Of a stretch of 64,000 bases of DNA, positions 29,974-55,355 are shown in pieces (position 1 is the stretch's first letter; every line of letters starts with the position of its first letter). The translations under genes were made by a program, and so were the position numbers. Source of the DNA: Fibrobacter sp. UWR3 (lineage in GTDB: Bacteria > Fibrobacterota > Fibrobacteria > Fibrobacterales > Fibrobacteraceae); assembly GCF_900143055.1 (NCBI RefSeq), contig NZ_FRCW01000004.1, positions 186,001-250,000 on the forward strand, read 5' to 3'. The notes beneath the pieces were generated by a model. That model was not told the origin of the DNA, made no database searches, and worked only from the letters and a program-made list of their open reading frames with translations.

Positions 29974-29978
29974 ATATT

Positions 29979-30350
29979 GAGTAGTTATAAGCCGGGTTCT
30001 GTACCCCTTGCGGGGCGATGACCATCTCTCTGGGCCAGTCGTTACCGACCGCCTCAAGCGACCTACCCGGATATCCAACAGCCGCGAGCCGCAGCCGGTC
30101 CTTGCGGACGGATTCCTGCTTGGTCTTGCACCGGATGAGGTTTACCGTGCCATCCCTGTCACCAGGAATGCGGTGAGCTCTTACCTCGCCGTTTCACCCT
30201 TACCTTGCCCGGGCTTGCGCCCGAACCTGGCGGTTTGCTTTCTGTTGCACTGTCTGTCGCGTTTCCGCGCCTGGACGTTATCCAGCATCCTGCCCTGTGG
30301 TGCCCGGACTTTCCTCCAGCATTGCTGCCGGCGGCCATCCGCTACCCGCA
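29979..30350 (-). ncRNA. rnpB: RNase P RNA, bacterial type A
   Basis: Read on the minus strand it contains the universal core GAGGAAAGTCCGGGC near the 5' end, AAACCGCCAGG and GGTAAGGGTGAAACGG in the middle, AGAGAGATGG and the 3' core CAGAACCCGGCTTAT. The outer helix P1 is GGGTAG (30347-30342) with CTACTC (29984-29979). Length about 372 nt, normal for type A. It is the catalytic RNA that trims tRNA 5' leaders. Ends are set by P1 and the adjacent terminator, so they are good to a few bases. Confidence 0.95.
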
Positions 30351-44455: not shown

Positions 44456-47400
44456 ATGAGTGTCGCGAACCTTTCCGTACGTCGCCCGGTACTCATGACG
44501 GTGATGGCGCTTGTCATCATCCTGCTCGGTGCGTTTGGCGCAAGCAACCTGGGCGTGCGCGAATACCCGAACGTCGACTATCCCTTGATTCAGGTGCGTA
44601 CCTCGTACCCGGGCGCGAACGCCGCGGTGGTGGAGGCCGAAGTCACCGAAATCTTGGAAGCATCCATCAACAGTGCGTCGGGCATCAAGGCGCTTACCTC
44701 CACGAGCCGAGACGGCTTCTCGTTCATCAACATCGAGTTTGAAACGGGAATGGACTTGGAGGCGGCTGCGAACGAAATCCGCGACCGCGTGAGCCGCGTG
44801 CGCCGCAGACTCCCCGACGATGTGGACGAGCCGACGGTCTACAAGTCTGATAGCGATAACGACCCAATTTTGATGGTGAGCCTCGTGAGCGACAAGCTCG
44901 ATCCGATGGAAGTTTCCGAAATCGCGAACAACTTTGTAAAGGAACGCCTGCAGACCATCAACGGTGTGTCTGAAGTCGCCATCTGGGGCGAAAAGCGCCC
45001 GACGGTGCGCCTGTGGATTGATCCGGTGCGCCTGCAGGCACTTGGCGTTTCGGGAGCCGAGATGTCGGCGGCGCTCAAACGCGGCAACCTGGAACTGCCC
45101 TCCGGTTCTATCGAGGGTAGCGAGACGACGCTTTCTATCCGCACGCTGGGCCGCATTCTGGACCCGAAAGCGTTCGAGAATATCGCGGTAAAGACGGCTG
45201 CCGACGGGACCGTCATCCGCATTTCCGATGTGGCGGATATCCATTACGAACCGAAGGACACGCGTACCGGGTTCCGCCGTAACGGCAAGAACTCCATCAC
45301 GCTCGCCCTGATGGCGCAGCCGGGTAGTAACCACGTGGAAATTGCGAACGAGTTCTACAGGCGCGTGGAGGATATCCGCCGCGAGATTCCCGAGGGCGTG
45401 CAGGTGCTTTACGGGCGTGATACCTCCATCAACATCCGCGCTTCCATCAAGGAGGTGGTGGAAACCATCTTCATCGCGTTCCTGCTGGTGATTGCGATTA
45501 TCTTTGCCTTCCTGCGGCAGGCCCGCACGACGCTCATCCCGATGGTGGTGGTGCCGGTGGCCGTTATCGGAAGCTTCTTCGTGCTGTACCTGTGCGGGTT
45601 CAGTATCAACGTGCTGACCCTGCTTGCGATGGTCTTGGCGATTGGCCTCGTGGTGGACGATGCCATCGTGATTGTGGAAAACATCTACCACAAGATTGAA
45701 CGCGGAATGACGCCCAAGCAGGCGGCGGTCGCGGGTACAAACGAAATCTTCTTCGCGGTGATTGCGACCTCGGTCGTTTTGATGGCGGTGTTCGTGCCGG
45801 TGCTTGCGCTGGGCGGTACAACGGGCTTACTTTTCCGCGAGTTCGTGGCGGTGATGATCGGGACTGTTTTCCTCTCGACGCTCTGTGCGCTTACGCTCTC
45901 GCCGATGCTCTGTTCCAAGTTCCTGAGCCGCCAAAAACAGGGCTGGTTCTTCCGCGTTACCGAGCCGTTCTTTGACTGGCTCAACCGCATTTACGCTGTG
46001 CTTCTCGGTGGGTTCCTCAAGTTGCGATTCTTGCTTTTCCCGGTAGTGGCGGGCCTCCTGGCTATTGCGTACCTCTGCTTCAACAACATGAGTAGCGAGA
46101 TGGCCCCGACGGAAGACTCCAACGCGGTCATGGTGAACCTGAACATGCCCGAAGGCGTGACGCTCACGCGCACCAAGCGCATGGCCGATGCCTTTGCTGA
46201 AGAAGTCATCGCGCTCATGGATACCAACGAGTATACCGAAATTCAGGCGGGCGCTTGGAACGCGGGCAACTCCAGAATGCGCATATTCCTGAACGCTGAC
46301 AAGAAAGCGCGCCGCCCGCAGAGCGAAATCGCCCGCAGCATCCAAGTGCTCGGTAATGAGTACCCCGATTTGCGCGTGATGGTTTTTGAACCGCAGAGCA
46401 TCAGCACGCAGCGCGGTGGCCTCCCGGTACAGTTTGTGTTGCAGGCCCCGAATATTGAAATCTTGCGCACGCTCGTGCCCAAGTTCGAGGAAGAGGCGAG
46501 CAAGAGCCCGGTGTTCAGCGTGGTGAACACGAACCTGAGATTCACGAAGCCCGAATTGCATATCGAGATTCTGCGCGACAAGGCGAACGAGGAAGGCGTT
46601 TCGGTGAACGACATCGCGCAGGCGGTGCAACTTGCGATAAGCGATCAGAGTTATGGCGAATTCTACAAGGACGGACGCCAGTACGATATCATCGGTGCGG
46701 TGGGTTACCAGTATCGCAGTATGCCCGAGAACATCTCGATGCTCACGGTCAAGAACGCGAAGGGCGAACTTGTGAGTCTCGATAACTTCATTACGTTCAG
46801 CGAGCAGTCCGCATCGCCGTCGCTCCCGCGATTCAACCGATTCTCTGCGGCCACCATCCAGGCGGGCCTTGTTCCCGGGAAGACGATTGGCGACGGCGTG
46901 GAGGAGATGCGCCGGATTGCGAAGCACCTCCTGAAGGATTACCCGAGCGTGAGTACCGCATTGAGCGGGTCGTCGAAGGAGTTCGAGGAAAGTTCCAGCG
47001 GGCTCTACATCGTGTTCCTCTTGGCGCTTGCGCTTGTGTTCCTGGTGCTTGCGGGGCAATTCGAAAGTTTCCGCGCTCCCTTCGTGATATTCTTTACGGT
47101 GCCTCTTGCGCTTGCGGGCGCGCTCGCCTGCCTGTTCATTACCGGCCAGACGCTCAATATCTTTAGCGAGATTGCGCTCATCTTGCTTATCGCACTCGTG
47201 ACGAAGAACGGCATATTGATTGTGGAATTTGCAAACCAGATTGCGGCGAATACCGGGTGCTCTAAGCTCGAGGCGGCTCGGCTAGCGGCTGAACGCCGCT
47301 TCCGCCCAATCCTCATGACGAGCCTTTCCACAGTGTTGGGCGCGGTGCCGCTCATCATGACCGGCACCCCGAGCCGCATTGCGATGGGCATCGCCATTGC

Positions 47401-48733: not shown

Positions 48734-48947
48734 GGTGAATCCAGTGAAAGCGCTATAAGGAACATGCCGCGCGTTTTTTGATAAACGTTTGTGGCAATCG
48801 CCCGGGTCCGGAAAGTCCGGTACCTGTATTTAGCCTAGGCCCAAGAGGAATATAGTAATTATGTGAGGTGTGTAATGTGTGATGTGGAAATTATAATTAG
48901 TCATTTCACATTCCACATTTCACATTTGATTATCTATCTTTGATATT

Positions 48948-49745
48948 ATGAAATATACCTTTGCCGACTTAGTCGATATTTTGAAGCGTCTCCGTGCCGA
49001 AGATGGATGCCCGTGGGACCGTGCTCAGGATACGCACACGCTCTTGCCGTACCTGGTAGAAGAAAGCAGCGAGTTTATCGATGCCGCGATGGAAGGCGAC
49101 AAGGCTCACATGTGCGAGGAACTCGGCGACGTGCTTTTGCAGGTGGTTTTCCATGCGCAGGTTTGCAAGGAAAGTGGCGATTTCAATATCGACGACGTGG
49201 TGCAGGGAATTTGCGAGAAGATGATTCGCAGGCATCCGCACGTTTTTGGCGATGCGCAGGTGGATACGGCAGGCGAGGTGAGCCGACGTTGGGAAAAGAT
49301 CAAGGCCCAGGAAGCGCTACACCAGAAGGATGCCGACAAGTCCGTTATGGATAAGGTAAGCAAGAGCATGCCGACGCTCGCCCGCACGCAGGATATCATC
49401 CGCAGGGTAGCGAAGGTCGGCTTTGATTGGGGCGAATCCGCTCCCGTATTCGACAAGGCTCAGGAGGAATTCGCGGAATTTCGTGCCGAGATGGAGAAGG
49501 TCACTCCCGAAAATGCGAATACCGACCGCCTGGAAGACGAGTTCGGCGATATCATGTTCTGCCTCGTGAACGTGGCGCGCCATAGCGGGTTCAATGCCGA
49601 CGTGGCACTCCGCCGCGCAAATGCGAAGTTCGAAAAACGCTTCCGCGAGGTGGATCGCCTTGCCCGCGAGCAGGGGAAGGCCCTGCCCGAATTTGGTCTG
49701 GAAGGCCTGCAGCAGCTGTGGAAGCAGGCTAAGCAGAAAACCTGA
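48948..49745 (+). CDS. mazG: Nucleoside triphosphate pyrophosphohydrolase MazG
   Basis: 265 residues, the length of E. coli MazG. First MazG domain: RLRAEDGCPWDRAQDTHTL, YLVEESSEFIDAAMEGD and CEELGDVLLQVVFHAQ; second: QEEFAEFRAEME and EDEFGDIMFCLVNVARH. It hydrolyses NTPs to NMP and pyrophosphate, clearing non-canonical nucleotides. TATCTT (48935-48940) lies seven bases before the ATG. An imperfect inverted repeat TGTGATGTGGAA (48878-48889) with TTCCACATTTCACA (48911-48924) lies just upstream. Confidence 0.95.
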   Translation: MKYTFADLVDILKRLRAEDGCPWDRAQDTHTLLPYLVEESSEFIDAAMEGDKAHMCEELGDVLLQVVFHAQVCKESGDFNIDDVVQGICEKMIRRHPHVFGDAQVDTAGEVSRRWEKIKAQEALHQKDADKSVMDKVSKSMPTLARTQDIIRRVAKVGFDWGESAPVFDKAQEEFAEFRAEMEKVTPENANTDRLEDEFGDIMFCLVNVARHSGFNADVALRRANAKFEKRFREVDRLAREQGKALPEFGLEGLQQLWKQAKQKT

Positions 49746-49753
49746 TGTAACTT

Positions 49754-49812
49754 ATTCCACGTTGGAATGTTCCTTGCGGGAACTGCTTCTTGTGAAAAAC
49801 TTTGTTCACAAG
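49754..49812 (+). other. Three tandem hairpins after mazG
   Basis: ATTCCA/TGGAAT (49754-49768), GTTCC/GGAAC (49769-49783) and CTTGTGAA/TTCACAAG (49789-49812), all perfect. No T-run follows, so this is not a classical terminator. It lies directly before the candidate small-RNA promoter. Confidence 0.6.
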
Positions 49813-49832
49813 GGCGTTTTATGGGGTATATT
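49805..49832 (+). promoter_or_regulatory. Promoter of an orphan transcript
   Basis: TTCACA (49805-49810), 16-base spacer, TATATT (49827-49832). No open reading frame starts behind it; a strong terminator follows about 105 bases later. The -35 overlaps the third hairpin. Confidence 0.4.
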
Positions 49833-49837
49833 ATGGA

Positions 49838-49957
49838 TGTGCTTCCAGTCAGTCCTGGTTCTAGAGAAGGGATGCCGGATCGAATCGCGGGGTAGGACTC
49901 ATTGGGTGTACGCTTTCTATTCCAAAAAAAGCACTCGGTCTTCGGGCCGGGTGTTTT
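49838..49957 (+). ncRNA. Candidate small RNA with a long hairpin
   Basis: Transcript defined by the promoter at 49805-49832 and the terminator ending at 49957. Its first 80 bases fold into one long imperfect hairpin: AGTCCT pairs with AGGACT, flanked by two more helices of six and about five pairs separated by single mismatches (5' arm from about GTGCTTCCAG, 3' arm to GGGTGTACG). It lacks the SRP RNA core, and is too short for 6S RNA, so I cannot name it. Confidence 0.4.
49931..49957 (+). terminator. Intrinsic terminator of the orphan transcript
   Basis: CACTCGGTC, TTCG loop, GGCCGGGTG with G-T pairs, then six T. Strong form. Confidence 0.8.
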
Positions 49958-49995
49958 TTGTGGTGTAAACCCGCAATTTATTGGTGTTTTGGATA

Positions 49996-50024
49996 TTGAA
50001 ACTTGCTCAAATGTTTAGTATATT
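49996..50024 (+). promoter_or_regulatory. uvrA promoter, predicted leaderless
   Basis: TTGAAA (49996-50001), 17-base spacer, TATATT (50019-50024), six bases before the ATG at 50031. With normal spacing transcription would begin on the start codon. Confidence 0.65.
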
Positions 50025-50030
50025 TGGGAC

Positions 50031-53000
50031 ATGACTAAGTCCATCGAAATCCGCGACGCGCACGAGCACAATTTACGCCATGTAAACCTTTCCATTCCCC
50101 GCGATTCCATCGTGGTGGTAACCGGCGTGTCGGGTTCGGGCAAGTCGAGCCTCGCCTTCGATACGGTGTTCCAGGAAGGTCAGAGGCGATTCGTGGAGTC
50201 GCTCTCGGCGTACGCGCGCCAGTTCATCGGCCGCATGAAACACCCCGAGGTGGAGAGCGTGCGCGGCATTTCGCCGACAATCTCGATTGACCAGAAGACG
50301 GTGAACCGTAACCCGCGTTCGACGGTGGGTACGGTGGTTGAAATTTTGGACCATTACCGTTTGCTTTTTGCCCGCCTCGGCGTGCCGCATTGCCCCGATT
50401 GCGGGCGAGTGATCCAGGCGCAGACGGTGGACCAGATTGTCGATAATTTGTATGTGAGTGACGAGGGCAAGCAGATTACGGTGATGGCCCCGATTGTGCA
50501 GGAGCGCAAGGGCGAATACCGCAAGGAACTGGCCGAACTCAAGGAAAACGGATTTGTGCGTGCCCGTGTGGACGGGACGATTTATCGCCTGGAAGATGTT
50601 CCTGCGCTTGTGCGTTACGAAAAACACACGATTGAAGCGGTGATTGACCGCTTGACGCTTGAACGCAAGAATATGAGCCGCCTGCGCGAGGCATTGGAAG
50701 GCGCACTGAAATTGACCGACGGGAAGTTGGTGAGTTTCTTGCTGTCGGCGGGCGGTTCTGGCAAGGATGGCGCCGGAGAGGCTGGTGCTGGAACTGTGCC
50801 GGGAAAGGACGGCGTCGAGGAGTACCGCCTGCAGGGTACACTGCTCGCTTGCCCCAAGTGCGGCATCTCCATCCCGGAACTGGAACCGCGGTTCTTCAGC
50901 TTTAATGACCCGAAGGGCCGTTGCCCCGCCTGTAAGGGTATGGGCGAAAGTTACAAGTTTGATTTGGACTTGATTATCCCGGACAAGACGAAGTCCATCA
51001 AGGAAGGCTGCATTGCGACCATCAAGAAGGACGACGGTACGCTGATTTTTAGCGACTTTGGCCGCCGCAACTTGAGGAACATTGCGAACGAGATGCATTT
51101 TTCGTTGGATACGCCGTGGAACAAGCTCAAGAAGGCGCAGCAGGATGCCGTCTTGTACGGCACGCCCAGCGAATCGGAACGCGGGATTATCCCCATTATG
51201 CAGGAACTGTGGGATATGTGGCATATTTTCCACTTCCGCAAGTACATGCAGATAGGCGTTTGCCCCGAATGCCACGGTACGCGAATCAACCGCACGGCGA
51301 ATGCGGTCACGTTCCATGGTGTGAATCTGACCGAGATGACGGAATGGTCCGTCGAGAAGTCGGTGAAATTTTTCAATAAGATTGACTTGTCCGAAAAGGA
51401 AAAGCGAATCGGCAAGGAGATTCTGAAAGAAATCCGCGGGCGTTTGAGTTTCCTCAATGCGGTGGGGCTGGGTTACTTGACTATTAACCGTAAGGCTTCT
51501 ACTTTGAGTGGCGGCGAGGCCCAACGCATTCGTTTGGCGAGCGCTGTGGGCGCCGGCCTGCAGGGCGTGCTTTACGTGCTTGATGAGCCGAGCATCGGGC
51601 TCCACCCCCGCGATAACGATAAACTGCTCGGGATGTTGGAACATTTGCGTGCGCAGGGCAATTCCCTGATTATTGTGGAACACGACGAAGACACCATGCG
51701 TCATGCGGACTGCGTGATTGACGTGGGGCCGGGTGCCGGCGTGGAAGGCGGTCGCGTGATTGCGGCAGGGACTGTCGAGGAGCTCGAAAAGAATAAGGCG
51801 TCGCTGACGGGTGCGTACTTGAGTGGCCGCAAGGCCATCGAGATTCCCGAAAAGCGCAAGAAGATTGACAAGAATACGCCGAAACTCAAGATTTGCGGTG
51901 CCGCTGAAAATAACCTCAAGAATATCGATGTGGAAATCCCGCTGGACGGCGCGCTAACGGTGGTGACGGGCGTGTCGGGCTCCGGCAAGAGTACGCTGAT
52001 TAACCAGATTCTGCGCCGCGAATTGGCCCGCGTGTTCTACAATTCCGAAGAGCCGGTCGGCAAGTTTGACCATCTGGAAGGCCTCGAGAATATCGACAAG
52101 GTAATTGAAATCGACCAGACGCCCATTGGCCGCACGCCGCGAAGCAACCCGGCAACGTACACGAAAATTTGGGACGATATCCGCGACCTTTTCGCCAGCA
52201 TGGAAGAAAGCAAGATTCGCGGTTACAGCAAGAGCCGATTCAGTTTTAACGTGAAGGGCGGACGCTGCGATGCCTGCGAAGGCGCGGGCGTGAAAATCGT
52301 GGATATGCACATTTTGCCCAGCGTGCAGGTGACTTGCGAAGTCTGCGGTGGCAAGCGCTTTAACGATGCCACGCGCGAAGTGTATTTCAAGGGCAAGAAC
52401 GTCTCCGAAATTCTCGATATGAGCATTGCCGATGCGGCGGAATTCTTCAAGGATATTCCGAAGATTGCAGAACCGCTGAATTTGCTTGTGGAAGTGGGCC
52501 TCGGCTACCTTACTTTGGGCCAGCCTTCGACAACGCTCAGCGGCGGTGAAGCGCAGCGCATTAAAATTGCTTCTGAACTGCGTCGCCCGGGTACAGGCAA
52601 GACGCTTTACCTGCTCGACGAACCGACGACGGGCTTGCATTTCGAAGATATCCGCAAGCTCATGGATTGCCTGAATCGCCTGCGTAGCCTCGGCAACAGC
52701 GTCGTGATTATCGAGCATAATCTGGACGTGATCAAGTGCGCCGACTGGATTATCGACTTGGGCCCGGATGCGGGTATTCACGGCGGTCGCGTGATTGCGA
52801 CAGGTACGCCGGAACAGATTGCGAAATGCAAGAAGTCCGAGACGGGTAAGTACCTCGCGCCGGTGCTTGCGAAAAAGCACGGCGAAAATCGGCATTTTGA
52901 CCGTACGCTTAAGGGCGGCGAAGACTTGTCGCTCGATATCGAGGTGCATGGCGCCCGCAAGCATAACCTGAAGAATATTGACGTGACGATTCCGCGTCAC

Positions 53001-55355
53001 AAGCTTACGGTGGTCACAGGCGTTTCGGGCTCCGGCAAGTCGAGCCTCGCGTTCCATACGCTCTTTAGCGAAGGCCAGCGCCGCTTTGTCGAGACGTTGA
53101 GCACGTATGCCCGCCGCTTCTTGGGCCGCCCTGACCACGGGAGCATCGATTCCATTTCGGGCTTGGCGCCTGCGATTGCGATTGACCAGAAGAGTGCAAG
53201 CAAGAGCCCGCGCAGTACGGTGGCGACCCTCACCGAAATTTATGACTACTTCCGCATTTTCTGGGCGAGGGTCGGCACCCCGCATTGCTTGAAATGCGGG
53301 AAGCCTGTGTCTTCGTACAGCGCGGGCGACCTGATGCAATACGCCTTCGACCGCGACTTGAACAAGAAAGTCACGGTTCTTGCCCCGTTCGAAATCAAGG
53401 ACGTGCTGAAGCTTTCCAAGATTCTCACGGAAAAAGGCTACCGCAAGGTTTACCTCGGCAATAAGCTGGTGGAACTTCCGCTGCCGAAAATCCCGACCCG
53501 CGAAAAGCAGTTGTTCGCTGTGGTCGATACGGTCGTGGTCAAGGAAGAAAACCGCGCCCGCCTGGTAGAAGCCTTTGAACGCGGCTACCGCGACGGTAAC
53601 GGAATCCTTTATGTGGAAGACGAAAAGGGTGGTCGCTTGGCCTGCTCCGAAAAGCCGGGTTGCCCCGATTGCGGTTGGTACATGGATTCGGCGCTGAATC
53701 CGAAGCACTTCAGTTTCAATACGCACTGGGGCGCTTGCGAAACCTGCCTTGGCCTCGGTCATTTTAAGGACGGCGAAGTCTGCCCCGATTGCCACGGCGA
53801 ACGCTTGAAACCGGAATATTTGGCGGTCCGCATCGGCGACAAGAACATCATGGACGTGAACCACATGAGCATCGCCCAGGCGCTCGAATGGTTCAGCAAC
53901 GAAAACTTCAAGCGCGACAATTTCGGGAAAGACAAGAATGCCGACGGCAAGATGACGGTCGCCGAACCTTTGCTCCGCGAAATTGTCGGGCGTCTCAACT
54001 TCTTGAAGGGAGTGGGCCTCGGCTACATCGGTCTTGACCGCGCGGGCGACACGCTCAGTGGCGGTGAATCCCAGAGAATTCGTCTCGCAAGCCAGATCGG
54101 TAGCGGCCTCGAAGGCGTGCTCTATGTGCTTGACGAACCCACGGTAGGCCTGCACGAAAGCGATACCGCCATGCTGCTCGATACGCTTTACCGCCTGCGC
54201 GATTTGGGTAACACGCTCGTGGTGGTGGAACACGACATGAAGATGATGCAGGCTGCCGACCACATTATCGATATGGGCCCGGCGGCGGGCGAGTTTGGTG
54301 GCGAGGTCGTTGCCGAGGGTTCTCCCGCACAGCTTTCCAAGCCTTACGCCTTACAGCAGTTCCCGCGTAGCGAGACTGTCAAGTACCTCACGCATACCAT
54401 CCCGATGGCGAACGAAATTGCGGCAAAGCCCATTACCGATTCTACGGAATTCTACGAGTTCGAAAAACTCAAGCACAACAATTTGAAGAATTTGTCTGTA
54501 AAGTTCCCGAAGGGCGCGATTAGCGTTGTCTGCGGTGTTTCGGGTTCGGGCAAGAGCTCCATGGTCATGGACGAAATCTACCCGCGCCTCAAGAAGAATT
54601 TTCAGGCACGCGGTCGCAAGAAGCAGAGCGGCGAAGTGTTGCTGGTGGACCAGAGCCCGATTTCAGGGACGCCTCGCAGCACGCCCGCCAGTTTCACGGG
54701 CGTGTTTGACGAAATCCGTAGGCTTTTCGCCAAACTGCCGCAAGCTAAGTTGAAGGGCTTCGATTATGGCCGCTTCAGCTACAACTTGGCTCGCGGCCGC
54801 TGCGAGGCCTGCGAGGGCCGCGGCGCCATCTCGGTGGAAATGCACTTCCTTTCGGACGTGTGGGAAGTCTGCGATGTCTGCGGCGGCAAGCGCTACAATC
54901 AGGAGACTCTCACCGTCACCTTCAAGGGTAAAAATATCGCCGACGTGCTCGACATGCGCGTGGCCGAAGCCTGCGAATTCTTCAAGGACCAGCCGAAAAT
55001 CCTCCCGAAACTGGAATGCCTGCGCGATGTGGGCCTTCCGTACGTAAAGCTCGGCCAGTCCGTGACGACCCTCAGCGGCGGCGAATCCCAGCGCCTCAAG
55101 TTGGCTGCGGAACTTGCCCGCAAGCCTGCCCAAGAAATGGTCTACCTGCTCGATGAACCGACTACCGGCCTCCACCTCAAGGATATCCAAATCCTCTGGA
55201 ACATGCTCCGCAAACTTTCTGCCCGCGGCGATACGGTCATCGTTATCGAACACCACCCCGATATCATCCGCCTCGCCGACTGGAAGGTGGAACTCGGGCC
55301 TGTCGGTGGCGAAAAGGGCGGATATTTGCTCGAAATGGGCGAAAATGCCCGCTAA
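50031..55355 (+). CDS. uvrA: Excinuclease ABC subunit A, double-length tandem fusion
   Basis: 1774 residues, about twice the usual 940. Residues 1 to about 955 are a complete UvrA: Walker A TGVSGSGKSS (31-40), zinc pairs, signature LSGGEAQRIRLASAVG, a second Walker A near 644 and LSGGEAQRIKIASELRRPG. From about 965 a second, shorter UvrA follows with its own Walker A motifs near 995 and 1500 and signatures LSGGESQRIRLASQIG and LSGGESQRLKLAAELA. So four ATPase sites in one chain, in effect a covalent dimer. UvrA finds bulky lesions and loads UvrB. Similar double-length UvrA is known in Chlamydia. The frame is intact throughout. Confidence 0.95.
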   Translation: MTKSIEIRDAHEHNLRHVNLSIPRDSIVVVTGVSGSGKSSLAFDTVFQEGQRRFVESLSAYARQFIGRMKHPEVESVRGISPTISIDQKTVNRNPRSTVGTVVEILDHYRLLFARLGVPHCPDCGRVIQAQTVDQIVDNLYVSDEGKQITVMAPIVQERKGEYRKELAELKENGFVRARVDGTIYRLEDVPALVRYEKHTIEAVIDRLTLERKNMSRLREALEGALKLTDGKLVSFLLSAGGSGKDGAGEAGAGTVPGKDGVEEYRLQGTLLACPKCGISIPELEPRFFSFNDPKGRCPACKGMGESYKFDLDLIIPDKTKSIKEGCIATIKKDDGTLIFSDFGRRNLRNIANEMHFSLDTPWNKLKKAQQDAVLYGTPSESERGIIPIMQELWDMWHIFHFRKYMQIGVCPECHGTRINRTANAVTFHGVNLTEMTEWSVEKSVKFFNKIDLSEKEKRIGKEILKEIRGRLSFLNAVGLGYLTINRKASTLSGGEAQRIRLASAVGAGLQGVLYVLDEPSIGLHPRDNDKLLGMLEHLRAQGNSLIIVEHDEDTMRHADCVIDVGPGAGVEGGRVIAAGTVEELEKNKASLTGAYLSGRKAIEIPEKRKKIDKNTPKLKICGAAENNLKNIDVEIPLDGALTVVTGVSGSGKSTLINQILRRELARVFYNSEEPVGKFDHLEGLENIDKVIEIDQTPIGRTPRSNPATYTKIWDDIRDLFASMEESKIRGYSKSRFSFNVKGGRCDACEGAGVKIVDMHILPSVQVTCEVCGGKRFNDATREVYFKGKNVSEILDMSIADAAEFFKDIPKIAEPLNLLVEVGLGYLTLGQPSTTLSGGEAQRIKIASELRRPGTGKTLYLLDEPTTGLHFEDIRKLMDCLNRLRSLGNSVVIIEHNLDVIKCADWIIDLGPDAGIHGGRVIATGTPEQIAKCKKSETGKYLAPVLAKKHGENRHFDRTLKGGEDLSLDIEVHGARKHNLKNIDVTIPRHKLTVVTGVSGSGKSSLAFHTLFSEGQRRFVETLSTYARRFLGRPDHGSIDSISGLAPAIAIDQKSASKSPRSTVATLTEIYDYFRIFWARVGTPHCLKCGKPVSSYSAGDLMQYAFDRDLNKKVTVLAPFEIKDVLKLSKILTEKGYRKVYLGNKLVELPLPKIPTREKQLFAVVDTVVVKEENRARLVEAFERGYRDGNGILYVEDEKGGRLACSEKPGCPDCGWYMDSALNPKHFSFNTHWGACETCLGLGHFKDGEVCPDCHGERLKPEYLAVRIGDKNIMDVNHMSIAQALEWFSNENFKRDNFGKDKNADGKMTVAEPLLREIVGRLNFLKGVGLGYIGLDRAGDTLSGGESQRIRLASQIGSGLEGVLYVLDEPTVGLHESDTAMLLDTLYRLRDLGNTLVVVEHDMKMMQAADHIIDMGPAAGEFGGEVVAEGSPAQLSKPYALQQFPRSETVKYLTHTIPMANEIAAKPITDSTEFYEFEKLKHNNLKNLSVKFPKGAISVVCGVSGSGKSSMVMDEIYPRLKKNFQARGRKKQSGEVLLVDQSPISGTPRSTPASFTGVFDEIRRLFAKLPQAKLKGFDYGRFSYNLARGRCEACEGRGAISVEMHFLSDVWEVCDVCGGKRYNQETLTVTFKGKNIADVLDMRVAEACEFFKDQPKILPKLECLRDVGLPYVKLGQSVTTLSGGESQRLKLAAELARKPAQEMVYLLDEPTTGLHLKDIQILWNMLRKLSARGDTVIVIEHHPDIIRLADWKVELGPVGGEKGGYLLEMGENAR

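Follow-up and report, generated by a model that had tools for sequence, protein, structure and literature searches.

A probable new family of structured non-coding RNA in Fibrobacteraceae, with its own promoter and terminator

Positions 49754–49957 of the window, by which we mean the whole 64,000-nucleotide stretch analysed here (186001–250000 of contig C4 in genome G000, which measures 3.55 Mb), read as an independent gene that encodes a structured non-coding RNA and has a promoter and a terminator of its own, a conclusion that the comparison of homologues supports. The RNA very likely represents a real and new family, with a fold that evolution has kept across the Fibrobacteraceae. In the rumen and gut, members of Fibrobacter play a major part in breaking down cellulose. 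The conserved core of the RNA covers 77 nt (49836–49912, + strand) and scores 88.1 bits with covariance model R1 and 85.7 bits with model R3, and 65 distinct sequences have been aligned to it. Counted on the sequence from the −10 box to the terminator, the transcript is predicted to be ~120 nt long. Several features expected of a stand-alone structured bacterial RNA are found here: a fold backed by covariation, a promoter and a terminator in the homologues, and no fixed downstream gene. The RNA has no match in Rfam 15 and the literature search gave no description of it. That search, which covered mainly papers outside subscription, returned no small RNA from Fibrobacter, and the accessible parts of PMC2864571 and PMC9029176 describe none either.

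But how can a stretch of intergenic DNA be recognized as an RNA gene? Folded on its own, the 89-nt hairpin does not stand out from its shuffles in stability (z = −0.88; 35 of 200 shuffles equal or exceed it), so one sequence would not prove an RNA, and the evidence for the predicted fold is the covariation among relatives and not single-sequence stability. The original prediction of a hairpin thus fell to the level of shuffles in this copy, but is strongly upheld by the homologues. When 45 distinct copies were aligned by MAFFT without structure, RNAalifold, again given no structure, recovered the hairpin and found a compensatory change in 15 of 23 pairs. Across these 45 sequences the named structure leaves 91.7% of cells paired, compared with 81.6% after shuffling and 28.5 to 43.0% when it is slid along the alignment, and cells changed on both sides number 127 against 42.2 in shuffles. 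A larger set, 81 copies from 82 loci, was realigned and contains the 65 distinct sequences; this alignment was made to fit the model and is biased in its favour, and in it 92.6% of cells are paired (78.9% shuffled), double-change cells reach 245 (75.6 in shuffles, with 0 of 500 attaining the real count), and 20 of the 27 pairs are changed on both sides, which answers the call for a covariance check on homologues. RNAalifold run on all 81 of these model-fitted sequences gives compensatory changes in 17 of 24 pairs. Is the region instead coding? The prediction had seen no sensible reading frame. Short frames of 42, 124 and 38 amino acids do cross the region, but a coding role for them is unlikely because the stem shows compensatory changes.

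The basal stem, P1, is formed by 49839–49856 pairing with 49894–49911 (+), 18 pairs with scattered 1x1 mismatches. Two-sided changes are seen in 17 of the 18 and 89.4% of cells are paired; P1 appears to be conserved as a helix alone, with a sequence free to vary. Above it stands the short helix P2, whose 5′ strand GGUUC (49857–49861) pairs with 49882–49886 (+), read as GAAUC in this copy and GAACC in the family; among homologues its pairs change from U-A to C-G and from G-C to G-U. Between the P2 strands, after a bulge of 1–2 nt, lies the apex GAGAAGGGAUGCCGGAUC (49864–49881, +). The long imperfect hairpin was anticipated correctly, but the three helices ascribed to it make up the basal stem only, and the conserved apical domain had been missed. 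Read inwards, the apex has a G-C pair, an A-U or C-G pair, GA facing GA, one variable pair, two G-C/G-U pairs and a GANG loop; the facing GA steps are probably tandem G.A pairs. Nine of its positions (alignment columns 31, 34, 36, 37, 38, 39, 41, 42 and 49) are invariant in 65 of 65 distinct sequences, and in eight of the distinct sequences, which come from two genera, columns 32 and 48 have C-G in place of A-U. A kink-turn usually has a three-nucleotide bulge beside its G.A pairs; reasoning from the alignment, we rejected this motif, as the G.A pairs of the apex have no such adjoining bulge. On the 3′ side, at the top of P1, is a conserved single-stranded G-rich bulge of 7 nt, GCGGGGU (49887–49893, +). 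The hairpin is followed by a pyrimidine-rich linker, CUUUCUAUUCCAA (49913–49925, +). A pseudoknot between bulge and linker was considered and dropped: their longest complement averages 4.85, against 4.94 in shuffles.

Upstream, the RNA is set apart from mazG by three hairpins (49754–49768, 49769–49783 and ~49785–49815, +), just as the original prediction had it; the stretch 49754–49815 has z = −3.8, and 0 of 200 shuffles are as stable. Terminator-like sites are called at 49769–49783 and 49787–49814 (+). The third hairpin overlaps the upstream part of the promoter region of the RNA and probably ends mazG transcription. The promoter had been given as TTCACA-N16-TATATT. Its −10 box, TATATT at 49827–49832 (+; predicted start ~49838–49840), is conserved, but the −35 element TTCACA is not: base counts over 69 distinct promoters show as conserved parts TATATTA(T) and a run rich in T that closes with C, 20 nt upstream of the −10. 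Of 76 distinct copies, 69 have a TATATT-like box 6–10 nt upstream of the first stem pair, a spacing that would put the start of the RNA at the base of P1. At the other end, the strong terminator that had been claimed is there (49926–49959, +), with 15 pairs, a UUCG loop and −20.8 kcal/mol (z = −6.0; equalled in stability by 0 of 200 shuffles), and terminators occur in 76 of 79 distinct homologous downstream stretches compared with 14 of 237 simple shuffles. Promoter box and terminator, together with the strong covariation and the independence of the neighbouring genes, bear out the claim of a stand-alone small RNA gene.

The upstream neighbour is mazG (48948–49745, +), encoding a nucleoside triphosphate pyrophosphohydrolase and identified by its reading frame and by NCBIfam (PRK09562.1, 306.8 bits; TIGR00444, 295.4 bits; both over cut-off). 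The short gap before it carries tandem-like repeats at 48898–48930, TTCACATT / TTCCACAT. Downstream, in this species, comes a double-length uvrA (50031–55355, +; reading frame and NCBIfam). Its product of 1774 amino acids is matched by the full UvrA model in several stretches, and apparently holds two UvrA-like halves in one protein. A promoter-like site, TTGAAA-N17-TATATT at 49996–50031 (+), ends 6 nt before the uvrA ATG, and uvrA may for this reason be made as a leaderless messenger. Does this neighbourhood matter for the RNA? It was surveyed for 81 hits, many of them with only 1.5 kb of flank, and the genes around the RNA vary from one genus to another. The names mazG, UvrA, EF-G and L25 were assigned by NCBIfam, the L25 piece scoring below the cut-offs as only 90 residues were supplied, while serC and an HD-type gene, seen together nearby in 4 of 81 hits, are readings of the sequence and not profile matches. 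In the scanned loci of genera g10 and g2 (L100–L104 and L053) a tRNA-Arg (UCU) gene lies at most ~250 nt from the RNA.

Where does the RNA occur? By BLASTN the stretch was detected in 67 of 101 Fibrobacteraceae genomes, and by R1, at E ≤ 0.01, in 90 of the 167 Fibrobacterota genomes, or 89 once a false match was dropped (25.9 bits, locus L065 in genome G037, sitting in a coding frame); the 89 include one 32-nt fragment at a contig end, in G148. The R1 matches fall in 76 of the 80 genomes of the window's genus and in 14 of other genera of the same family, the dropped G037 being one of the 14, nearly always as one copy per genome, and at this threshold none was seen in any other family among the 167. 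The broader model R3, run with laxer filters, recovered nothing from 17 R1-negative Fibrobacteraceae genomes outside the window's genus (genera g3, g4, g5, g6, g8 and g11), from two R1-negative genomes within it, or from the genomes searched in sister families f2, f3 and f4. An R3 match of 23 bits in G165, of family f5, was set aside, its fold being unlike that of the RNA family. On these searches the RNA appears to be restricted to a single family, Fibrobacteraceae, and there to most of the genera. It was not found in genera g5, g6, g8 and g11 or in genome G013; either the family can do without it, or in these genomes it has diverged too far to be detected. A search of genome_contigs with a core pattern returned 75 stretches, 63 from records titled Fibrobacter, Fibrobacteraceae or similar and 12 from other organisms. 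R1 was run on all 12 of the latter, which stayed at or below 24.8 bits or were not matched at all, and on 8 of the former, which reached 70.5 to 91.4. Among the records with the core are F. intestinalis ATCC 43854 and numerous isolates under the name F. succinogenes; viral contigs had 0 matches to the pattern.

Is it a known RNA in a new place? In the whole window, the only Rfam 15 match over threshold is RNase P RNA, class A (29974–30350, − strand, 272 bits), and the search that had been proposed to reveal a known family came back empty for the core, in this copy as in 12 homologous loci. Relaxing the threshold to E ≤ 10 yields, at this stretch, weak matches on the terminator and flanks, and a single one on the core, to SOX2OT (11 bits, 18 bases on the 3′ side), which is at chance level; at E ≤ 1 none of the 12 homologous loci has a match on the 77-nt core. 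Sub-threshold matches near homologues, to the ylbH leader (32.2 bits, L059) and to Acido-Lenti-1 and Thr_leader (L102), all lie outside the cores. The assertion that the RNA is none of SRP RNA, tmRNA or RNase P RNA holds: RNase P RNA is elsewhere in the window, ARAGORN finds no tRNA or tmRNA within it, and a genome search places the single SRP RNA (RF00169) at 44776–44872 of the same contig (42.3 bits, over cut-off). The small SRP RNA is likewise a single hairpin with a variable base and a conserved apex, but the apex differs. In its TATATTTT box and its terminator, the SRP RNA of this genome (L039:1501–1597, −) closely resembles the new RNA. CsrA binds a GGA motif, which the loop AGGGAUG resembles, but CsrB/RsmZ-type RNAs have many such sites where this one has one, and the type was rejected, the genome having no CsrA over cut-off (best 13.9 bits, cut-off 27). 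Bacterial Y RNA (YrlA), a protein scaffold with a stem formed by its two ends, offers a similar layout and a similar scaffold idea; it too was rejected, as the genome has no Ro60/TROVE match at E ≤ 1 and the RNA no match in Rfam. A TPP riboswitch was met in the Fibrobacteraceae genome G006 (L270:1934–2031, −).

What, then, does the RNA do? A conserved, aptamer-like core followed by a terminator could be the riboswitch or leader of a downstream gene, and in genus g3 a tRNA-Gln and the L25 gene do follow the RNA in its own orientation. However, the downstream gene varies: it is EF-G, on the other strand, in 58 of 81 hits (in one, EF-G lies upstream), uvrA in 2 and L25 in 2, and many copies have no adjoining co-directional gene. 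Since no co-directional gene follows the RNA in every case, this is the least probable of the explanations that we weighed, and the 'before uvrA' setting in the original prediction proves incidental. It is nearly as improbable that the RNA belongs to the mazG messenger and has been retained at its 3′ end for stability or regulation. Same-strand mazG is indeed upstream, within 1200 nt, in 45 of the 81 hits, many short-flanked, but the RNA has its own conserved −10 box, a terminator-like hairpin stands before it, and there are genera in which mazG is not adjacent. A base-pairing small RNA, whose linker or G-rich bulge would pair with the ribosome-binding sites of several mRNAs without Hfq, deserves more weight, though we still consider it unlikely. 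Its own promoter and the succession of hairpin, linker and terminator are those of Hfq-dependent small RNAs, and the single-stranded linker carries UUCUA(A)UUCCA, which recurs, like a possible pairing seed, in several groups of the window's genus and is absent in others, or UUCAUUGAUCAUCCUCCU in genus g10. On the other hand, such RNAs have an open seed, whereas conservation here sits in the structured apex; the linker is replaced in the L016 and L047 groups while the apex stays near-invariant. Hfq has no match at E ≤ 1 in the genome (control over cut-off in 5 of 14), although lack of Hfq does not exclude pairing RNAs. The best explanation, to which we would give about an even chance, is a stand-alone structured RNA of ~120 nt that acts in trans and presents its apex and bulge to a protein. 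Transcription would start at the foot of P1 and end in the terminator, and the RNA so made would act away from its gene. Less certainly, and judging by the pattern of conservation, the invariant apex and the G-rich bulge would form a three-dimensional binding site, and the RNA would hold or regulate the bound protein instead of pairing with messenger RNAs. The invariant letters concentrate in the apex and bulge and leave out the linker, a pattern suggesting that shape is what is recognized; protein binding, itself near an even chance, is favoured over pairing, at about a quarter, because this invariance falls in structured parts while the linker is replaced between groups, a weaker inference than that of transcription and action in trans.

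Could the protein be RNA polymerase, and the RNA a shortened or functionally equivalent 6S RNA? 6S RNA binds RNA polymerase and templates pRNA; it has a closing stem, a large central bubble and a terminal arm, usually well over 100 nt in all. Like the new RNA it is a long imperfect hairpin from a stand-alone gene, and it is found in other families of the phylum. The Rfam model (RF00013) detects it at E ≤ 0.01 in 22 of 167 Fibrobacterota genomes; only 3 of these 22 matches are over the cut-off, Fibrobacterota 6S RNAs mostly scoring below it. Model R2, a phylum-specific model built from 20 of the 22, detects it at E ≤ 0.1 in 40 of 167 genomes from nine families. Neither search finds 6S in Fibrobacteraceae, the window's genome included, and this is the sole family carrying the new RNA. 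There is also a weak alignment to the apical part of the 6S RNAs of families f4 and f5 (best score 34, with an f4 sequence, against a 99th percentile of 29). However, RF00013 does not appear at E ≤ 10 at this stretch or at E ≤ 1 at 12 homologous loci, R2 gives the new RNA at most 16.6 bits, which is background, and profile tests failed both ways: the 6S profile reported 0 of 65 real sequences as opposed to 20 shuffles, and the profile of the new RNA picked up 1 of the 23 genuine 6S sequences, with 0.0 bits, a score below that of many shuffles. Homology to 6S was thus rejected, despite the complementary distribution and the suggestive hand alignment. The two RNAs have no profile or model similarity, and with 77 nt against ~170 the new RNA is less than half as long, with a one-sided bulge of 7 nt in place of a central bubble. 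Besides, 6S is also undetected in Fibrobacteraceae genera without the new RNA, in f2, in f3 and in nearly all of f4, and its absence may be a detection limit: a 177-nt 6S-like RNA in the f4 genome G163 receives only 29.9 bits from R2, so a divergent 6S could be missed. This diverged RNA lies directly before a gene that reads as folD-like. An improbable reading would have the new RNA as a lineage-specific functional replacement, acting on RNA polymerase or the translation machinery, the 6S gene having been lost or changed beyond recognition in Fibrobacter ancestors and a small hairpin having taken over its global role; the shortened or equivalent 6S is equally doubtful.

What does the work of 6S in Fibrobacteraceae, where it goes undetected though other families of the phylum have it? 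The finding raises this question for the whole family. Mostly single-copy, with 65 distinct aligned sequences and a near-invariant apex, the RNA is ready to be entered in Rfam, and it offers a bait for finding an RNA-binding protein not yet known.
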